Below the pieces are notes generated by a model that made no database searches, was not told the origin of the DNA, and saw only the letters and a program-made list of their open reading frames with translations. A DNA stretch of 64,000 nucleotides from positions 80,576-144,575 of the forward strand of contig JAAENN010000020.1 of the NCBI GenBank assembly GCA_024224295.1. Reading direction: 5' to 3'. Shown here in pieces: positions 35,802-56,906 of this stretch; position 1 is the stretch's first letter, and the number at the start of each line of letters is the position of its first letter. The DNA comes from Shimia sp. GTDB taxonomy: Bacteria > Pseudomonadota > Alphaproteobacteria > Rhodobacterales > Rhodobacteraceae. Made by a program: the position numbers and the translations under genes.

Positions 35802-36581
35802 TTAAACGTGACGCTCAACCAACATCTTTTTGATCTCGGAAATTGCTTTCGCAGGGTTCAGGCCCTTCGGACAGGTCTTCGCACAGTTCATAATGGTATG
35901 GCAGCGATAGAGTTTGAACGGATCTTCCAGCTCATCCAGACGCTCGCCAGTCGCTTCATCACGGCTGTCGATGATCCACCGGTACGCATGCAACAGTGCG
36001 GCTGGGCCGAGGTATTTGTCGCCATTCCACCAGTAGCTTGGGCAGGAGGTAGAACAGGACGCACACATCACACACTCATAGAGACCATCCAGCTTCTTGC
36101 GGTCCTCAATCGACTGACGCCATTCTTTCGCCGGGCGGTTGGTCTTGGTTTCCAGCCACGGCATGATTGACGCGTGTTGCGCGTAAAAGTGTGTCAGGTC
36201 CGGAATCAGATCTTTAACCACCGACATGTGTGGCAGAGGGTAGATTTTCACGTCGCCCTTAACTTCATCCAACCCATAGATACAGGCCAGTGTATTGATA
36301 CCGTCGACGTTCATCGCACAGGAGCCACAAATGCCCTCACGGCAAGACCGGCGGAACGTTAGCGTTGGATCAATCTCATTTTTGATCTTGATCAGCGCAT
36401 CCAAAATCATTGGGCCACATTTGTCCATATCGAGGAAATATGTATCAATCTGCGGGTTCTTACCATCGTCCGGGTTCCAGCGGTAAATCTGGAACTTGCG
36501 CACGTTGGTTGCACCTTCTGGCTTGGGCCAGGTCTTGCCAGTCACAATCCGGCTGTTCTTGGGGAGGGCAAATTCGACCAT
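35802..36581 (-). CDS. sdhB: Succinate dehydrogenase iron-sulfur subunit
   Basis: [78 protein letters not shown]. Confidence 0.98.
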
Positions 36582-36634
36582 GGTCTTTCCTTCCTATACG
36601 TGGGCGCGCGCAATGCGCTTACCTTCGTTCCTGT

Positions 36635-37468
36635 TCAGGCTTTCTGTGATGGCATCGGACCATCGGCAAAAAGCGTTTGATTTTTCTTAATCAGCTCGGC
36701 CACCTTTTTGCGGGCGGGCTGCGCGAGCGCCAACTCGTTGAGTTGACGCATAAACTCTAGAGCCCCGGGGTTGAGGCTTTGGTTGGACCGCCCGGCAAGC
36801 GGCTCCAACGTATCGATCTCGGCATCCGTCAGACCAGCAAAACGCAACAGCTGCCGGCCCGGACGCTCCGGCGTGGTCTCGTCTTCCAGCGCAAACACAC
36901 GCACACGTTCCGCGCCAACGAGACCTTCCATTTCAGTCTGTACGGCGTCCCACTCACGGCTGCCTGTGGTCTCCGCCAGGAACGTCTCAAGCGTGCCTAC
37001 ATATCCATCCGACTTCACAGCCTGATTGTGCACACTGCGCTTCCAACCCTGCATTTCGCGCGTGTAGAGAACATAATCTGGCTTAAACGGCGCTAAATGC
37101 TGCTCAAACAAGCGAAGGATGCCTGACAGACGCGGGAACACATCCCGCACGTCCGAGCGTCCCATCATCGCGCCACAAATGTTCTCGTGGCTGATGACAC
37201 AAACCCGATCGTCACCTTCCAGCGCGTCCCGCACCTGCGCAATCAACGCCACAAGGTCTGCTTCGTGTTTCGCAGGTCGCATGCTGTAAAGCGTGCAGGT
37301 CCGCCCCAGTTCCCGCGTCAGCGAGCCTTTGGAGGGCACAAGAAGGTCCAACCGCTCAGCCAAGGCGTCCCGATTGCGCGCCAAGAAGCGATGCAATGAG
37401 GTAGAGCCCGTTTTCTGAGCGCCAATATGAACAATCACGCGACGCGAAGACATCAAAGGCCCTCCCAA
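36635..37468 (-). CDS. Sulfotransferase-like protein
   Basis: RVIVHIGAQKTGSTSLHRFLARNRDAL (5'-PSB-like GAQKTGSTSL). Confidence 0.65.
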   Translation of the reverse strand: MGGPLMSSRRVIVHIGAQKTGSTSLHRFLARNRDALAERLDLLVPSKGSLTRELGRTCTLYSMRPAKHEADLVALIAQVRDALEGDDRVCVISHENICGAMMGRSDVRDVFPRLSGILRLFEQHLAPFKPDYVLYTREMQGWKRSVHNQAVKSDGYVGTLETFLAETTGSREWDAVQTEMEGLVGAERVRVFALEDETTPERPGRQLLRFAGLTDAEIDTLEPLAGRSNQSLNPGALEFMRQLNELALAQPARKKVAELIKKNQTLFADGPMPSQKA

Positions 37469-37496
37469 AGCGCGACTGTTGGCGGGTATGAACTAC

Positions 37497-38138
37497 TCAA
37501 CGGGTGCAATATTGCTTCCCCCCGTGAAGCACGTCGGCATGTTTCGGACACCCAAAAGACGCGGTGGCTGTTTGGCGGGGCACTGTCGTGGCTACTGCAG
37601 AAACGGCCGATGTAGCTGCCGTTGACGCAGCCGGCGTTGATGACGGATTGTAAACCATCTGATTTGTTATCCGTCCACTGGAGTTTGCAACACTTGGATT
37701 GGCGACAATCTGCCCGTTAATCCCGGCCTGCCCCTCAAAGCTCTTCAAGTACTCAGCACTTTCGTCCAGCCCAAGTGCCTTCCCACGTGACGCTGGCGTC
37801 GCATTTGGGTAGACCACGTTGTTGTAGTATTGAGGCGCACTAGGAGTAATAGGTGGGGTGCCAACTGCGCTAAACACGCATTGATTAATTCTAGCGGCAT
37901 CGTCGGCAGACGTCGTATCGCTAGGCACCACGACAAGCATATGGCTCTTTGTCCCGCCCGCTTTGCGATATTTCTCCGCGAGCGCAAGTTTCTTGCGCCC
38001 GCCGTTCGTTGCAGAACACTGCCAAATCTGAGCTTCATACGCGTTGAAACGAGCAACCACCTCAGGGCTCGGCCCACATGATGCTGCAAGCCCAATCAGC
38101 GCAGGAACACTTACAAATTTGACAGTTTTAGCGAACAT
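37497..38138 (-). CDS. Hypothetical lipoprotein
   Basis: MFAKTVKFVSVPALIGLAASCGPSPEVVARFNAYEAQIWQC: lipobox-like LAASC. Confidence 0.6.
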   Translation of the reverse strand: MFAKTVKFVSVPALIGLAASCGPSPEVVARFNAYEAQIWQCSATNGGRKKLALAEKYRKAGGTKSHMLVVVPSDTTSADDAARINQCVFSAVGTPPITPSAPQYYNNVVYPNATPASRGKALGLDESAEYLKSFEGQAGINGQIVANPSVANSSGRITNQMVYNPSSTPAASTAATSAVSAVATTVPRQTATASFGCPKHADVLHGGKQYCTR

Positions 38139-38149
38139 ACAGGACCCTT

Positions 38150-39958
38150 TTAGAACGTCCGGGCCTTCGGCGCGATTTTCTTCAAGCTAATGCCACCCTC
38201 GTCTTCGGTCGTCAGCGGGTCAACAACAACAGGTCGATAACTTAGGTCTACCTTGTTGCCATCTACGCGGCTCACAGTATGCACACGCCAGTTCTTGTCG
38301 TCCCGCTCAGAATAATCCTCATGCGCGTGCGCACCACGGCTTTCCTTACGGGCTTCCGCACCGTGGATTGTCGCCAGCGCGTTTGGCATTAGGTTGGTCA
38401 GTTCCAGCGTTTCCATCAGATCGCTGTTCCAAACCAAAGACGTATCGGTCACGTGCAGATCATCGATCTTCGCCGCGATGTCGGTCATCTTCTCAACGCC
38501 TTCTTTCAGCGTCTTGTCAGTTCGGAACACCGCCGCATCCGCCTGCATGGTGCGCTGCATCTCAAGACGCAGCTCCGCAGTTGGCGCGCCACCTTTAGCG
38601 TTACGCACATTGTCAAACCGATCAAACGCCGCATCCAGAGACGCTTGGTTCAGTACTGGGTTTGCCGCCTCTGCATCCACAACCTTACCGGCGCGAATGG
38701 CTGAAGCACGACCAAACACCACAAGGTCGATCAGCGAGTTGGAACCGAGACGGTTTGCACCATGCACCGAAGCACAGCCAGCCTCGCCCACAGCCATCAG
38801 ACCCGGCACAACGGCGGTTGGATCGTCGGCAGAAGGGTTCAACACCTCACCCCAATAGTTGGTTGGAATGCCACCCATATTGTAGTGCACGGTTGGCAGA
38901 ACCGGGATTGGTTCTTTGTTCACATCCACACCCGCAAACACCTTCGCAGATTCGGAGATGCCCGGCAGACGTTCCGCCAACGCTTCTGCAGGCAAGTGGC
39001 TGAGATTCAGGTGAATGTGATCCCCATTCTCACCCACACCACGGCCTTCGCGGATTTCCATGGTCATGGAGCGGGACACGTAATCCCGAGGGGCAAGGTC
39101 TTTATACTGCGGCGCGTAACGCTCCATAAAGCGCTCGCCTTCGGAGTTGGTCAGATACCCGCCTTCGCCGCGTGCACCTTCCGTGATCAGACAGCCAGAA
39201 CCGTAGATCCCAGTTGGGTGAAACTGGACAAATTCCATGTCCTGCAGTGGCAGACCCGCACGGGCTACCATACCGCCGCCATCACCGGTACAGGTGTGGG
39301 CAGAAGTGGCAGAGAAATAGGCACGGCCATAACCACCGGTCGCCAACACAACCATCTTCGCGTTGAAGACGTGCATGGTGCCGTCGTCGAGCTTCCAGCA
39401 AACCACACCCTGACACTGCCCGTCCTCAGACATGATCAGATCAAGTGCGAAATACTCAATGTAGAACTCGGCGTTGTTCTTCACTGACTGGCCATACAGA
39501 GTGTGCAGAATCGCGTGACCGGTCCGGTCTGCAGCCGCACAAGTCCGCTGCACGGCAGGGCCCTCGCCGAACTCAGTGGTGTGACCACCAAACGGACGCT
39601 GGTAGATTTTGCCTTCTTCTGTCCGGGAGAACGGCACACCATAGTGCTCCAGCTCATACACCGCTTTGGGTGCTTCTCGGGCGAGGTATTCCATCGCATC
39701 CGTGTCACCCAGCCAGTCCGACCCTTTTACAGTGTCATACATGTGCCACTGCCAGTTATCGGGCCCCATGTTGGACAGGGAAGCCGCGATACCACCCTGC
39801 GCCGCAACTGTGTGCGAGCGGGTTGGGAAAACTTTTGTCACGCAAGCGGTGCGCAGGCCTTGCTCAGCCATGCCCAATGTGGCGCGCAAACCGGCACCAC
39901 CGGCGCCAACGACAACCACGTCATATTCGTGTGTTTCGTATTCGTATGCTGCTGTCAT
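38150..39958 (-). CDS. sdhA: Succinate dehydrogenase flavoprotein subunit
   Basis: [114 protein letters not shown]. Confidence 0.99.
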
Positions 39959-39979
39959 CTTTTTCTTCCTTGCGCCGGA

Positions 39980-40351
39980 TCAGAGGGCGAGTTTCACGAG
40001 GGCAAACAGACCCACGGCAATCATCGTGTAGCAAAGCGCGGTTACGCCGATATAAGTGAGCTTTTCCGAAACGCCGTGCATGTAGTCTTCAATTGCGGCC
40101 TGTGCTTCACGCATAACATGGGTCACGCCCACAATCAGGGTCAACGCGGTTACAATAGCGGGAACCGGACGGCCGTAAAATGCCAGCACCTCTTCAAAAG
40201 TGCCGCCAAGGCTCAATCCAAAGGTGATGATAAATGCTGGAAAAAGAAAAACGATTGCAATCGAACTGATCATCATTTGCCAATGATGATGGGTGCCGTG
40301 GCCGGCTGATCCAGTACCCAATGCACGCTTGCGGTCAGTGAGAAAGTTCAT
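39980..40351 (-). CDS. sdhD: Succinate dehydrogenase, hydrophobic membrane anchor subunit
   Basis: Hydrophobic protein GTHHHWQMMISSIAIVFLFPAFIITFG...HVMREAQAAIEDYMHG, between sdhC and sdhA. Confidence 0.93.
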   Translation of the reverse strand: MNFLTDRKRALGTGSAGHGTHHHWQMMISSIAIVFLFPAFIITFGLSLGGTFEEVLAFYGRPVPAIVTALTLIVGVTHVMREAQAAIEDYMHGVSEKLTYIGVTALCYTMIAVGLFALVKLAL

Positions 40352-40363
40352 GATTTCGTCTCC

Positions 40364-40747
40364 TTACAGCACGAGCACGGTCAGAACCGTCAGTACGGTG
40401 GCACCAACGAACATCGCCTGGCCAAGCTTGACGGCGACATCAACATCCAGGCAATAGCCAAAGTCCCAAACCACGTGACGCAGACGCCCCAACAAGTGGT
40501 AGTATGCAGCCCAGGCCGCACCAAACAAGAAGAGCTTGCCAAGCCAGCTGCGCATCAGCCCATCGATAAATGCAAATGACTCTGCAGAAGTTGCAGCTGC
40601 CAGAAACCACCAGAGCAAGATCATGGTAATGGGGATAAGGGCGATGCCCGTAATCCGTACCATAATCGAAGACATGGATGTCATCTGTGGTCGGTAAATC
40701 GTCAGATGCGGCGAGAGTGGACGTTCAATCCTTTTCACATCAGCCAT
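40364..40747 (-). CDS. sdhC: Succinate dehydrogenase cytochrome b556 subunit
   Basis: RPLSPHLTIYRPQMTSMSSIMVRITGIAL; YYHLLGRLRHVVWDFGYCLD. Confidence 0.96.
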   Translation of the reverse strand: MADVKRIERPLSPHLTIYRPQMTSMSSIMVRITGIALIPITMILLWWFLAAATSAESFAFIDGLMRSWLGKLFLFGAAWAAYYHLLGRLRHVVWDFGYCLDVDVAVKLGQAMFVGATVLTVLTVLVL

Positions 40748-40862: not shown

Positions 40863-40892
40863 TGTGATCACACAAAATTATTCGTGATCACA
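40863..40892. promoter_or_regulatory. Paired palindromic operator candidate upstream of sdhCDAB
   Basis: TGTGATCACA at 40863-40872 and CGTGATCACA at 40883-40892, start-to-start 20 bp; the second overlaps a candidate minus-strand -10 (TAATGT, 40890-40895; -35 CTGACA, 40913-40918; 17-bp spacer). Confidence 0.6.
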
Positions 40893-40991: not shown

Positions 40992-41660
40992 TCATTCGCG
41001 CACCTCTGAAAGTTGCAAAGCCACTTCTCGTACCAGCTTTTGTCGAATTCGCCTCGGATATTCCTCAAAGCCCAGGGCCGTCACCACAAATGCACCCGGT
41101 CCTGTGATCACATTTTCCCAATAGTACGCCGTCAGGTCTTCCTCATTGGTTTCGATGACCAGCCCATTGACCGTCGCCCCCATATCACCAAGCCTTTTTC
41201 TGGCTCCTTCTGGTGCGGATCCTTCGTTGGACGGTCCATCGCCGGAAACATCCAGAACCATTCGTCGACAATCCGGCCCCGTCTCAAACTCATGCGCCGC
41301 GCGGGTCAACGCGTCCCCGATAGCTGTCGAATACCGCCGCCAGCCACGTGGCGCGGCATCCACAGCTGCGGCCAAAGCTGCGGCTTCCGCCCCATTGCGC
41401 ACCCGCATCCAGGGCACCGACATCACCTGCCGATCCGCCCCGGTCCACTGCATCACTGCCACAGCAGCTTCCGCCTTGATCAAGGCTTCCACCACGATGC
41501 CATCACGTAACCCCGCCGCCAGCCCGTTCATTTGAATGCCGTACTCCGTCGCATCCACACTACCAGAGACATCCACCGCCAACAAAAGAGCAAGATCACA
41601 GGCACGTACCATAGGTGACTGAAGAGACAGGACAAGGAGGAGGCAAAGCCGAAACATCAT
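40992..41660 (-). CDS. DUF1194 domain-containing (VWA-like) exported protein
   Basis: CDLALLLAVDVSGSVDATEYGIQMNGLAAGLRD; RMVLDVSGDGPSNEG. Confidence 0.85.
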   Translation of the reverse strand: MMFRLCLLLVLSLQSPMVRACDLALLLAVDVSGSVDATEYGIQMNGLAAGLRDGIVVEALIKAEAAVAVMQWTGADRQVMSVPWMRVRNGAEAAALAAAVDAAPRGWRRYSTAIGDALTRAAHEFETGPDCRRMVLDVSGDGPSNEGSAPEGARKRLGDMGATVNGLVIETNEEDLTAYYWENVITGPGAFVVTALGFEEYPRRIRQKLVREVALQLSEVRE

Positions 41661-49840: not shown

Positions 49841-49988
49841 TGGGTCGGAGTGGCGCCTCAAGAAATGGGGCGCCAACAGTGAAACCGTTGGCGGTAACGC
49901 TGCACCGCAATCCGAGTCGCACGCGCATTCCCTTATTTCATTAGCAATTTGTTTAATTTGTGCGGCTTTCCGCCGAGATGCCCAGTTT

Positions 49989-50019
49989 TGTGATCACGCA
50001 TTTTCAAGCTGTGATCACA
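49989..50019. promoter_or_regulatory. Paired palindromic operator candidate upstream of sucCD
   Basis: TGTGATCACG at 49989-49998 and TGTGATCACA at 50010-50019, start-to-start 21 bp. Confidence 0.6.
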
Positions 50020-50114
50020 AATAAGAAAAAATCCACCATTCCTGTCGAATTTGCTTATCGGCTCGACCGGACTGTGCCAGAACCGCTTCAATCGCAGCAA
50101 GATGGGACAGTTCC

Positions 50115-51308
50115 ATGAACATCCACGAATATCAGGCGAAAGCCCTGCTTCGCTCCTACGGCGCCCCGGTGTCCGAAGGCCGCGCCGTTCTCAAAGCAGA
50201 AGACGCAAAATCCGCCGCAGGCGAACTTGACGGCCCCCTTTGGGTTGTGAAGGCGCAGATCCACGCAGGTGGGCGCGGCAAAGGCTCTTTCAAAGAAGCT
50301 GATGCAGGCGAAAAAGGCGGTGTCCGCCTCGCCAAATCGGTCGAAGAAGCGGCTGAGGAAGCCAAAAAGATGCTGGGCCGCACCCTTGTGACCCACCAGA
50401 CCGGCCCAGCGGGCAAACAGGTCAACCGCATCTACATCGAAGATGGCTCCGACATCGAGCGTGAGCTGTATCTGGCTCTGCTGGTGGATCGTCAGACCTC
50501 CCGCGTGTCTTTTGTATGCTCCACCGAAGGCGGCATGGACATCGAAGAGGTGGCCGAAGCCACCCCTGAGAAAATCCTGTCCTTCTCCGTCGATCCGGCC
50601 ACCGGTTACCAGCCATACCACGGCCGCCGCGTCGCCTTCTCCCTGGGCCTGAAAGGCGCACAGGTGAAAGAATGCGTGAAGCTGATGGGCATTCTCTACA
50701 AAGCCTTCATGGAAAAAGACATGGAGCAGCTGGAGATCAACCCGCTGATCGTCATGCCAGGCGGCGCACTGAAAGTGCTCGACGCCAAAGTTGGCTTTGA
50801 CGGCAACGCCCTCTACCGCCACGCCGACATCGTAGAACTGCGCGATGAAACCGAAGAAGACCCCAAAGAGCTTGAGGCGTCCAAATACGACCTGAACTAC
50901 ATCGCTCTGGACGGTGAAATCGGCTGCATGGTGAACGGCGCGGGTCTCGCGATGGCCACCATGGACATCATCAAACTCTACGGTGCAGAACCTGCCAACT
51001 TCCTCGACGTGGGCGGCGGCGCAACCAAAGAGAAAGTGACCGAAGCGTTCAAGATCATCACCTCTGATCCAAACGTCAAAGGCATCCTCGTGAACATCTT
51101 CGGCGGCATCATGCGCTGTGACGTGATCGCAGAGGGCGTTGTGGCCGCGGTGAAAGAAGTTGGCCTGCAGGTGCCACTGGTTGTGCGCCTCGAAGGCACC
51201 AACGTGGAAGCCGGCAAAGAGATCATCAACACCTCCGGTCTTGATGTGATCGCGGCGGACAACCTGTCCGACGGTGCTGAAAAAATCGTCAAAGCGGTGA
51301 AAGGATAA
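50115..51308 (+). CDS. sucC: Succinate--CoA ligase (ADP-forming) subunit beta
   Basis: [57 protein letters not shown]. Confidence 0.98.
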
Positions 51309-51313
51309 CACCC

Positions 51314-52195
51314 ATGGCCATTCTCGTAGATGAAAACACCAAGGTTATCTGTCAGGGCTTCACCGGCTCTCAGGGCACCTTCCACTCTGAACAAGCCATC
51401 GCCTATGGCACCAAAATGGTCGGCGGCGTGACTCCGGGCAAAGGTGGCATGGAACACCTCGGCCTGCCGGTCTTTGACTCGGTACACGACGCCAAAGCCA
51501 AAACCGAAGCCAACGCTTCCGTGATCTATGTGCCTCCGCCCTTCGCAGCGGACTCGATCCTCGAGGCCATCGATGCGGAAATGGAACTGATCATCTGCAT
51601 CACCGAAGGCATTCCTGTGCTGGACATGATGAAAGTACAGCGCGCGCTGGAAGGTTCCGCGTCTCGCCTGATCGGTCCGAACTGCCCGGGCGTCATCACG
51701 CCGGATGCGTGCAAAATCGGCATCATGCCGGGCCACATCCACAAGCGTGGCTCCGTGGGCGTTGTGTCCCGCTCCGGCACCCTGACTTACGAAGCGGTTA
51801 AGCAAACCGCAGACATCGGTCTGGGCCAGTCCACTGCTGTGGGCATCGGCGGCGACCCAATCAAAGGCACCGAGCACATTGACGTGCTGGACATGTTCCT
51901 GTCGGACGACGAGACCCAGTCCATCATCATGATTGGTGAGATCGGTGGTTCCGCGGAAGAAGAAGCCGCAGAATTCCTCGCCAACGAGCGCAAAAAAGGC
52001 CGCTGGAAGCCAACCGCTGGCTTCATCGCAGGCCGCACAGCGCCTCCCGGCCGCCGCATGGGCCACGCCGGTGCGATTGTTGCCGGTGGCAAAGGTGGCG
52101 CCGAAGACAAGATCGCCGCGATGCAGGAAGCGGGCATCGTCGTAGCAGACAGCCCAGCCGGCCTCGGCGAAGCTGTGCTCAAAGCGATCGGCTAA
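51314..52195 (+). CDS. sucD: Succinate--CoA ligase subunit alpha
   Basis: [83 protein letters not shown]-type motif. Confidence 0.98.
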
Positions 52196-52445: not shown

Positions 52446-55406
52446 ATGACCGAACAGTCGCCAAACGACATCTTCCACGCCTCCTCCTTTATGCAGGGGC
52501 ACAATGCGGAATACCTCGAACAGATGTACGCCCGCTACGCCGCCGACCCCGCTGCGGTTGACGAAGTCTGGCAGGAGTTCTTCCGCCAGCTTGGTGATGC
52601 AGAGCTGGATGTGAAAGCAGAGGCCTCCGGCCCGTCTTGGGCCCGCAATGATTGGCCCCTACAGCCAAATGATGACCTTACGTCTTCCCTGACCGGCGAA
52701 TGGCCGGAACAGGTTGAAGCCAAGGCCGCAGGCAAAAAGATCAAAGAGAAAGCCGCCGAGAAAGGCGTTGAGGTCTCTGACGAAGCCATCAAACGCGCGG
52801 TACTAGACAGCATCCGCGCCCTGATGATCATCCGCGCCTACCGTATTCGCGGTCACCTGATTGCCGACATCGACCCGCTGGGCATGCGCGATCAGACCCC
52901 GCATCCTGAGCTTGATCCAAAATCCTACGGCTTTTCTGACGCCGATATGGATCGCCCGATCTTCATCGACAAAGTGCTGGGCCTCGACATCGCCACGATG
53001 CGCCAGATCATGGACATCGTGAAGCGCACCTACTGCGGCACTTTTGCGCTGCAATACATGCACATCTCCAACCCCGAAGAAGCGAGCTGGCTGAAAGAGC
53101 GCATCGAAGGGTACGACAAAGAAATCACCTTCACCCGTGAAGGCCGCAAGGCGATCCTCAACAAACTGGTCGAAGCTGAAGGCTTTGAGAAGTTCCTGCA
53201 CGTGAAATACATGGGCACCAAGCGCTTTGGTCTGGACGGCGGTGAAAGCCTAATTCCAGCCATGGAGCAGGTGATCAAGCGCGGCGGCAGCCTCGGCGTC
53301 GAAGAGATTGTCATCGGCATGCCACACCGTGGCCGCCTGTCAGTATTGGCCAACGTGATGGCCAAGCCGTACCGCGCGATTTTCAATGAATTCCAAGGCG
53401 GCAGCTTTAAACCCGAAGATGTCGACGGCTCTGGTGACGTGAAATACCACCTCGGCGCATCTTCTGACCGTGAATTCAATGGCAACACCGTCCACCTCAG
53501 CCTGACCGCGAACCCATCGCACCTTGAGGCGGTAAATCCGGTTGTTCTGGGCAAAGTCCGCGCCAAACAAGACCAACGCAACGACGATGCCCGCACCACT
53601 GTGATGCCGATCTTGTTGCACGGCGACGCCGCCTTTGCCGGCCAAGGCGTTGTGGCAGAGTGTTTTGCTCTGTCTGGCCTCAAGGGCCACAAAACCGGCG
53701 GCACCATGCACATCGTGGTGAACAACCAGATCGGCTTCACCACCGCACCGCACTTCTCCCGTTCTTCACCATACCCAACCGACAACGCGCTGGTTGTGGA
53801 AGCGCCAATCTTCCACGTGAACGGCGACGACCCGGAAGCGGTTGTCCACGCTGCGAAAGTGGCGACGGAATTCCGTCAAAAATTCCAGAAAGACGTCGTC
53901 ATCGACATGTTCTGCTACCGCCGTTTTGGTCACAACGAGGGCGACGAGCCCATGTTCACCAACCCGGTGATGTACAAGCGCATCAAAAAGCAGAAAACCA
54001 CGCTGACGCTTTACACCGAGCGTCTGGTGAAAGACGGTCTCATTCCTGAGGGCGAGATCGAGGACATGAAGGCCTCTTTCCAAGCGCACCTCAACACGGA
54101 GTTTGAAACCGGCAAAGAGTATAAGCCTAATAAGGCTGACTGGCTCGACGGTCGCTGGTCCCACCTGGACAAACGCGGCGAAGACTATGAGCGGGGCCAA
54201 ACCTCGATCAAACCGGAAACCATGGCAGAGATCGGCAAATCGCTGTCCTCCGTGCCAGAAGGCTTCCCACTTCACAAAACTGTTGGCCGTCTTCTCGACA
54301 CCCGCGGCAAGATGTTCTCGTCAGGCAAAGGCTTTGACTGGGCCACCGCCGAAGCCATGGCATTTGGCTCCCTGATGACCGAAGGGTATCCAGTACGTCT
54401 GTCCGGTCAGGACGCCACCCGCGGCACCTTCTCTCAGCGTCACTCCGGTATCATCAATCAGGACACAGAAGAGCGCTACTTCCCGCTCAATAACATCCGC
54501 GCCGGTCAGAGCCAGTACGAAGTCATCGACTCCGCGCTGTCTGAATACGCGGTGCTGGGTTTTGAATACGGCTACTCTCTGGCAGAACCAAACGCACTGA
54601 CCCTCTGGGAAGCCCAGTTTGGTGATTTTGCCAACGGTGCGCAGATCATGTTTGACCAGTTCATCAGCTCCGGCGAAAGCAAATGGCTGCGCATGTCCGG
54701 CCTGACCGTCCTGCTGCCACATGGTTTCGAAGGTCAGGGTCCAGAGCACTCCTCTGCCCGCCTGGAACGCTTCCTGCAGATGTGTGGGGGTGACAACTGG
54801 ATCGTTGCGAACTGTACGACACCAGCCAACTACTTCCACATCCTGCGCCGTCAGCTGCACCGCACCTTCCGCAAGCCGCTGATCCTGATGACACCAAAGT
54901 CCCTGCTGCGCCATAAGCTGGCAATTTCCGAAGCAGAAGACTTTACCGATGGATCGTCTTTCCACCGCGTACTCTGGGATGACGCCCAAAAAGGCAACTC
55001 CGACACAACGCTGGCCAAGGACAAAGATGTCAAACGCGTCGTCATGTGCTCCGGCAAAGTCTACTATGACCTGCTGGAAGAGCGTGACGCCCGTGGCATC
55101 GACGATGTCTACCTGATGCGGATTGAGCAATACTATCCGTTCCCGGCCCACTCGCTGATCAAGGAGCTTGAGCGCTTCAAGGATGCGGAAATGGTCTGGT
55201 GTCAGGAAGAGCCTAAAAACCAGGGTGCGTGGTCCTTCATTGAGCCCAACATTGAATGGGCGCTCACACGCATCAAAGCAAAACACTCCCGTCCGGTATA
55301 CGCAGGCCGCCCGGCCTCCGCCTCCCCTGCCACCGGACTGGCAAGCCAACACAAAGCCCAACAAGCAGCGCTGGTGGATGCCGCGCTCTCCATGGAAGGA
55401 AATTGA
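52446..55406 (+). CDS. sucA: 2-oxoglutarate dehydrogenase E1 component
   Basis: ARYAADPAAVDEVWQEFFRQLGD; FLHVKYMGTKRFGLDGGESLIPAMEQVIKRGGSLGVEEIVIGMPHRGRLSVLANVM. Confidence 0.98.
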   Translation: MTEQSPNDIFHASSFMQGHNAEYLEQMYARYAADPAAVDEVWQEFFRQLGDAELDVKAEASGPSWARNDWPLQPNDDLTSSLTGEWPEQVEAKAAGKKIKEKAAEKGVEVSDEAIKRAVLDSIRALMIIRAYRIRGHLIADIDPLGMRDQTPHPELDPKSYGFSDADMDRPIFIDKVLGLDIATMRQIMDIVKRTYCGTFALQYMHISNPEEASWLKERIEGYDKEITFTREGRKAILNKLVEAEGFEKFLHVKYMGTKRFGLDGGESLIPAMEQVIKRGGSLGVEEIVIGMPHRGRLSVLANVMAKPYRAIFNEFQGGSFKPEDVDGSGDVKYHLGASSDREFNGNTVHLSLTANPSHLEAVNPVVLGKVRAKQDQRNDDARTTVMPILLHGDAAFAGQGVVAECFALSGLKGHKTGGTMHIVVNNQIGFTTAPHFSRSSPYPTDNALVVEAPIFHVNGDDPEAVVHAAKVATEFRQKFQKDVVIDMFCYRRFGHNEGDEPMFTNPVMYKRIKKQKTTLTLYTERLVKDGLIPEGEIEDMKASFQAHLNTEFETGKEYKPNKADWLDGRWSHLDKRGEDYERGQTSIKPETMAEIGKSLSSVPEGFPLHKTVGRLLDTRGKMFSSGKGFDWATAEAMAFGSLMTEGYPVRLSGQDATRGTFSQRHSGIINQDTEERYFPLNNIRAGQSQYEVIDSALSEYAVLGFEYGYSLAEPNALTLWEAQFGDFANGAQIMFDQFISSGESKWLRMSGLTVLLPHGFEGQGPEHSSARLERFLQMCGGDNWIVANCTTPANYFHILRRQLHRTFRKPLILMTPKSLLRHKLAISEAEDFTDGSSFHRVLWDDAQKGNSDTTLAKDKDVKRVVMCSGKVYYDLLEERDARGIDDVYLMRIEQYYPFPAHSLIKELERFKDAEMVWCQEEPKNQGAWSFIEPNIEWALTRIKAKHSRPVYAGRPASASPATGLASQHKAQQAALVDAALSMEGN

Positions 55407-55409
55407 TCC

Positions 55410-56906
55410 ATGACCGAAGTTCGAGTCCCTACCCTTGGCGAATCCGTCACCGAAGCCACCGTTGCCACCTGGTTCAAAAAACCGGGTGATGCGGTCGCCG
55501 TGGACGAAATGCTCTGCGAGCTGGAAACCGACAAAGTGACCGTCGAAGTTCCTGCCCCGGCTGCAGGTGTTCTGGGTGAGATCGTGGCCGCCGAAGGCGA
55601 CACCGTGGGTGTTGATGCGCTGCTGGCCAATATCACAGCCGGCGAAGGTGCCGCTCCTGCGCCAGCCGCTGCAGCAGCACCTGCCGCCGCAGCCCCTGCT
55701 GCCGGTGGTGGCGACGCGGTTGACGTGATGGTCCCAACTCTGGGTGAATCCGTGACCGAGGCCACCGTGTCCACATGGTTCAAGGCTGTGGGTGACACTG
55801 TTGCGCAGGACGAGATGCTCTGTGAGCTGGAAACCGATAAGGTCTCCGTTGAGGTGCCCGCACCTGCGGCTGGTGTTCTGACTGAGATAATCGCAGCCGA
55901 AGGCGCAACAGTAGACGCCTCCGCAAAGCTGGCTGTGATTGGTGGCGCGTCTGCCTCTGCAGCCGCAGCACCTGCTGCTGCCCCAGCCGCCGCCGCCGCA
56001 CCAGCCGGGTCCGCTGATGTGGAAAACGCCCCATCGGCCAACAAGCTGATGGCAGAAAAAGGCATTGCTGCTTCTGCCGTTACCGGCACAGGCCGCGACG
56101 GTCGCATCATGAAAGAAGACGTGATGAAAGCCGCTCTAGCCCCGGCGCCTGCCGCTGCGCCAGCTCCGGCTGCTGCACCTCGCGCACCGGTATCTGCGGA
56201 CGACGCCTCCCGCGAAGAGCGGGTGAAAATGACACGCCTGCGTCAGACCATCGCCAAGCGTCTGAAGGAAAGCCAGAACACCGCCGCCATGCTGACCACC
56301 TACAACGAGGTCGACATGGGCGCGGTGATGGATCTGCGCAAAGAGTACAAAGATGCCTTTGAGAAAAAGCACGGCGTGCGTCTGGGCTTTATGTCTTTCT
56401 TCACCAAAGCTTGCTGCCATGCGCTGAAAGAGGTGCCAGAAGTCAACGCAGAGATCGACGGCACCGACATCGTGTACAAGAACTTCGTACACATGGGTGT
56501 GGCCGCTGGCACCCCAACCGGTCTGGTTGTGCCTGTGATCCGCGATGCCGACAGCATGTCTTTTGCGGAGATCGAAAAAGCCATTTCTGAAAAAGGCAAA
56601 CGGGCCCGTGACGGCAAACTGTCCATGGCGGAAATGCAGGGCGGCACCTTCACGCTCTCCAACGGCGGTGTCTATGGCTCCCTGATGTCCTCGCCAATCC
56701 TGAACCCACCGCAGTCCGGTATCCTCGGCATGCACAAAATTCAGGACCGTCCAATGGCGATCAACGGTCAAGTTGTGATCCGTCCAATGATGTATCTGGC
56801 CCTGTCCTACGATCACCGCATCGTGGATGGCAAAGGCGCCGTAACCTTCCTCGTGCGCGTGAAAGAAGCGCTGGAAGACCCACGCCGCCTGCTGATGGAT
56901 CTGTAA
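55410..56906 (+). CDS. sucB: Dihydrolipoyllysine-residue succinyltransferase (E2o) with two lipoyl domains
   Basis: Two lipoyl motifs ([22 protein letters not shown] and [22 protein letters not shown]), catalytic [17 protein letters not shown]. Confidence 0.97.

Follow-up and report, generated by a model that had tools for sequence, protein, structure and literature searches.

The stretch of Shimia sp. DNA analyzed here, which spans 64,000 nucleotides and is referred to below as the window, carries two TCA-cycle operons, sucCD-sucAB and sdhCDAB, and each of them is preceded by a pair of short palindromic sites. The core palindrome GTGATCAC is present in all four sites. The positions of the sites and genes, together with those of a putative regulator gene that lies outside the window on contig C368, are collected in the table; the name sucC is the one usual for this protein family.

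Candidate operators in the window, the operons that follow them, and the putative regulator gene
Feature	Position	Strand	Remarks
Upstream operator, suc pair	49989..49998	.	TGTGATCACG; pair kept in 58 sucC upstream regions
Downstream operator, suc pair	50010..50019	.	TGTGATCACA; 21 bp from partner; ends ~96 bp before sucC ATG
sucC, succinyl-CoA synthetase beta subunit, first gene of operon	50115..51308	+	ORF; tblastn relatives 73-94% identity
sucD, succinyl-CoA synthetase alpha subunit	51314..52195	+	ORF; order same in relatives
sucA, 2-oxoglutarate dehydrogenase E1	52446..55406	+	ORF; order same in relatives
sucB, 2-oxoglutarate dehydrogenase E2	55410..56906	+	ORF; order same in relatives
Distal operator, sdh pair	40883..40892	.	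CGTGATCACA; pair kept in 37 sdhC upstream regions
Proximal operator, sdh pair	40863..40872	.	TGTGATCACA; 20 bp from partner; ~115 bp before sdhC ATG
sdhC, succinate dehydrogenase cytochrome b subunit, first gene of sdhCDAB	40364..40747	-	ORF; relatives 33-57% identity
sdhD, sdhA, two more ORFs, sdhB	35802..40351	-	ORFs; sdhC-D-A-B order in G052
Putative akgR, 217-residue GntR+FCD protein	C368:6513-7163	-	TGTGATCACA 18 bp before ATG

The original prediction had placed TGTGATCACG at 49989 and TGTGATCACA at 50010, 21 bp apart, and both the coordinates and the spacing proved to be correct. It had further stated that the sdh arrangement matches this one. A pair is indeed found there, but its spacing is 20 rather than 21 bp and one of its sites is CGTGATCACA, so that the suc and sdh arrangements are equal to within 1 bp and not exactly. 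The pairs lie upstream of sucCD-sucAB and of sdhC, while sucAB has no operator of its own and would come under the control of the suc pair only if it forms part of the sucCD transcript. A sigma-70 scan found no promoter near either pair or at the sdh or suc operon.

Allowing up to one mismatch, there are five matches to the palindrome in the window, namely the sdh pair, the suc pair and a single site at 41103, against an expectation from shuffled sequences of 2.0 +/- 1.4. Pairs spaced by 20-21 bp are expected by chance at about 1e-4 per window, an estimate in which sites fall independently of one another with a density of 2 per 64 kb, and two were observed. Since single sites are only mildly in excess, it is the pairing that stands out over chance. 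Across the whole 4.56-Mb genome, the exact pair pattern occurs in two places only, which are the sdh and suc pairs. The original prediction had also noted no comparable pair upstream of genes such as mdh and mch, and this held true: no site with up to one mismatch was found near mdh, mclA or mch, and the pair was absent from 9 of 9 mdh upstream regions. The single site at 41103-41112 is a third exact copy of TGTGATCACA, located within a coding ORF (40992-41660, minus strand), some 210 bp away from the sdh pair; it could be a chance occurrence or an auxiliary operator, and is treated as chance since it is inside coding sequence.

The conservation of the pairs was analyzed in 150 Rhodobacteraceae genomes, one per genus, by searching for the exact pair with a spacing of 18-22 bp and using the reversed pattern as a control. 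The exact pair was found in 126 of the 150 genera, whereas the reversed pattern was found in none. Inspection of 98 pair-bearing loci, including the two in the window and allowing a spacing of 18-23 bp, revealed that the gene following the pair was sucC in 58 cases, sdhC in 37 and fumC in one, with two loci not assigned. This placement is informative because the loci were picked by the pattern and not by the gene. Among the 96 assigned pairs, the spacing was 21 bp in 83 and 20 bp in 13, while the distance from the pair to the start codon ranged across the family from 93 to 165 bp for sucC and from 106 to 294 bp for sdhC. When the upstream sequences were aligned on the pair, no other block in them was strongly conserved.

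Some of the loci in this survey depart from the general pattern. In one genome, a 21-bp pair lies 123 bp upstream of fumC (L042, G043:C16, 1501-1530), an apparent extension of the predicted regulon to fumarase. The two loci that were not assigned are L041, where the pair is within coding sequence, has an 18-bp spacing and looks like chance, and L288, for which no target gene was assigned. A class-wide search outside the family yielded the pattern in three genomes only, two of them in family f15, where it is found at other genes, and one, G223, in which it is an artefact of a simple 20-bp tandem repeat. In one of the f15 genomes, G297, the 21-bp pair (L241, 992-1021) adjoins the gene for a different GntR-like regulator, which suggests that there may be a wider group of GntR proteins that read TGTGATCACA in tandem.

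The original prediction named GntR/FadR-type regulators as candidates. There are 16 GntR-domain genes in the whole genome, none of them in the window, and the best candidate is in keeping with that proposal: it is the GntR-family FCD protein encoded on C368, whose own gene is preceded by the same operator. A site with up to one mismatch was present upstream in 78 of 80 orthologues of this gene, taken from named genomes, compared to 1 of 320 control windows. Moreover, in 69 of the 78 site-bearing orthologues, a TTGAnn hexamer is located exactly 11 bp before the start of the operator. Because it starts 11 bp after this hexamer, the operator would lie over the expected -10 region, a position appropriate to an autorepressor.

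In Rhodobacter sphaeroides, the GntR protein RSP_0981 has been predicted to control sucCD (RSP_0966-7), sdh (RSP_0974-6) and 2-oxoglutarate dehydrogenase (RSP_0962-0965), with mdh being RSP_0968 (PMC4344238). The gene order that we found in the related genome G052, sucBADC, mdh, mclA, mch, sdhCDAB, akgR, in which the GntR gene lies less than 1 kb past sdhB, agrees with the R. sphaeroides tags RSP_0962-0967, 0968, 0974-6 and 0981. On the basis of synteny in relatives, the C368 protein is the probable orthologue of RSP_0981. We take RSP_0981 to be the protein described as AkgR by Imam et al. (mBio, 2015), which is reportedly an activator of its targets in R. sphaeroides. The Shimia sp. system resembles that of AkgR (RSP_0981) in the GntR family of the regulator, in the GTGATCAC core, in the targets sucCD, sdh and 2-oxoglutarate dehydrogenase, and in the location of the regulator gene beside the TCA cluster in related genomes, but differs in that akgR of Shimia sp. 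is found on a different contig from the cluster. One paper also names GTGATCAC among the AkgR binding sites (PMC6365646). The idea that a single regulator is common to sdh and suc/odh is thus supported, both by the conservation of pairs at the two operons and by its agreement with the published AkgR regulon predictions (PMC4344238), although the regulon is a known one: judged from sequence comparison, both pairs are almost certainly AkgR operators. What goes beyond the original prediction is that the regulator and its regulon have already been described, that the regulator gene is outside the window, and that the published sign is activation.

The present sequences also show the strict tandem of 20/21 bp and the fixed TTGAC-N11-operator arrangement before akgR; this pairing rule and the autoregulatory geometry may not have been described so far. 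A text search of the literature for the palindrome returned matches that were unrelated by title, mostly from animal, plant and cell-biology work. Two further systems bear comparison. The same palindrome, GTGATCAC, has been proposed as the operator of PS417_07240, the GntR regulator of a deoxyribonate cluster in Pseudomonas simiae, a related protein that is 32% identical to AkgR but has other targets, with one described site, located at -47 to -40 relative to the start codon (PMC6365646). In addition, sdh and mdh of R. sphaeroides have been assigned by prediction to the central carbon regulon of CceR (PMC4344238), which belongs to a different protein family, that of LacI.

We also investigated whether the regulator and the pair occur together across the 150 genera. 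With a clear gap in the match scores serving as the cut-off for orthologue calls, an AkgR orthologue was found in 135 of the 150 genomes. Both the orthologue and the pair were present in 124 genomes, the orthologue only in 11, the pair only in 2 and neither in 13 (Fisher p 1.2e-10, a value that ignores kinship). When their promoters were read directly, 6 of the 11 orthologue-only genomes revealed a degenerate form of the pair at sdh or suc. The only genomes with a suc pair in which no orthologue was found are G019 and G098, which are 91% and 77% complete, respectively. A genome of the opposite kind is G112, which encodes an AkgR orthologue that is 84% identical and yet has no pair at sucC or sdhC (L189, L218). 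On the SucC tree there are 8 state changes, and since only 1 independent pair of changes falls on well-supported branches, shared descent could be a cause of the correlation. The co-occurrence therefore supports the assignment to AkgR without carrying it.

These data also bear on whether a protein other than AkgR could bind the pairs in this genome. One candidate would be a GntR/FCD paralogue within the same recognition class, distinct from the AkgR orthologue; in its favor are the 16 GntR-domain genes, the proposal of GTGATCAC as operator for a Pseudomonas GntR protein that shares only 32% identity with AkgR (PMC6365646), and, in G297, the pair that adjoins the gene for another GntR protein. 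We nevertheless consider this very unlikely, because none of the GntR genes found, apart from that on C368, coincides with any of the 7 exact TGTGATCACA sites of the genome, because the C368 site and its promoter geometry are kept in nearly all orthologues, and because the C368 gene adjoins sdh and suc in relatives and goes together with the pair across genera. In their letters, TGTGA and TCACA match the half-sites of CRP/FNR-type sites (TGTGA...TCACA), but CRP/FNR half-sites lie several bp apart, whereas here no base separates them in any copy, which makes it extremely unlikely that the palindromes belong to that type. Finally, it is barely credible that the pairs arose by chance or are repeats without a regulatory role: the weak enrichment of single sites in the window (5 versus 2.0) is outweighed by the restriction of exact pairs to two TCA operons in the genome, and the idea is refuted by the conservation of the pair in 126 of the 150 genera, at these same operons and with a spacing of 20/21 bp.

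We consider it very likely, on comparative sequence evidence, that the pairs serve as operators for AkgR, a GntR/FCD regulator, which would bind as two dimers per promoter and co-activate sucCD-sucAB and sdhCDAB. On each pair the two dimers would sit side by side, upstream of the promoter of sdh or suc; as 20-21 bp corresponds to two helical turns, they would share one face of the helix. Their binding would then activate both operons together, provided that the sign in Shimia sp. is the published one. At akgR, by contrast, one dimer on the single operator between the -35 box and the -10 region would probably repress the gene. The combined proposal, in which one palindrome is used in two architectures, as tandem two-turn operators that activate sdh and suc and as a single operator 11 bp after the -35 box that mediates autorepression, seems to us about evenly poised between right and wrong. 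If it is true, AkgR would be a compact dual activator and autorepressor throughout the family, with its sign set by the number and position of the sites. The regulon as such is not new. Nonetheless, its recovery indicates that reading raw sequence is able to find a real regulon, and the conservation of the pairs would place the part of the TCA cycle from 2-oxoglutarate to fumarate under one regulator throughout the Rhodobacteraceae, while the two-turn pairing and the autoregulatory geometry lead to precise, testable predictions on activation and self-limitation by AkgR.

Further exact copies of TGTGATCACA are found on other contigs of the genome. The copy on C22 is inside a gene for an ABC-transporter substrate-binding protein and that on C397 is inside a phage-tail-like coding sequence; both were treated as chance and rejected as targets. 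Another exact copy (L258, G000:C226, 1527-1536) falls within the final part of an ORF and precedes, by about 210 bp, a gene resembling those for succinyl-CoA:3-ketoacid CoA-transferase.
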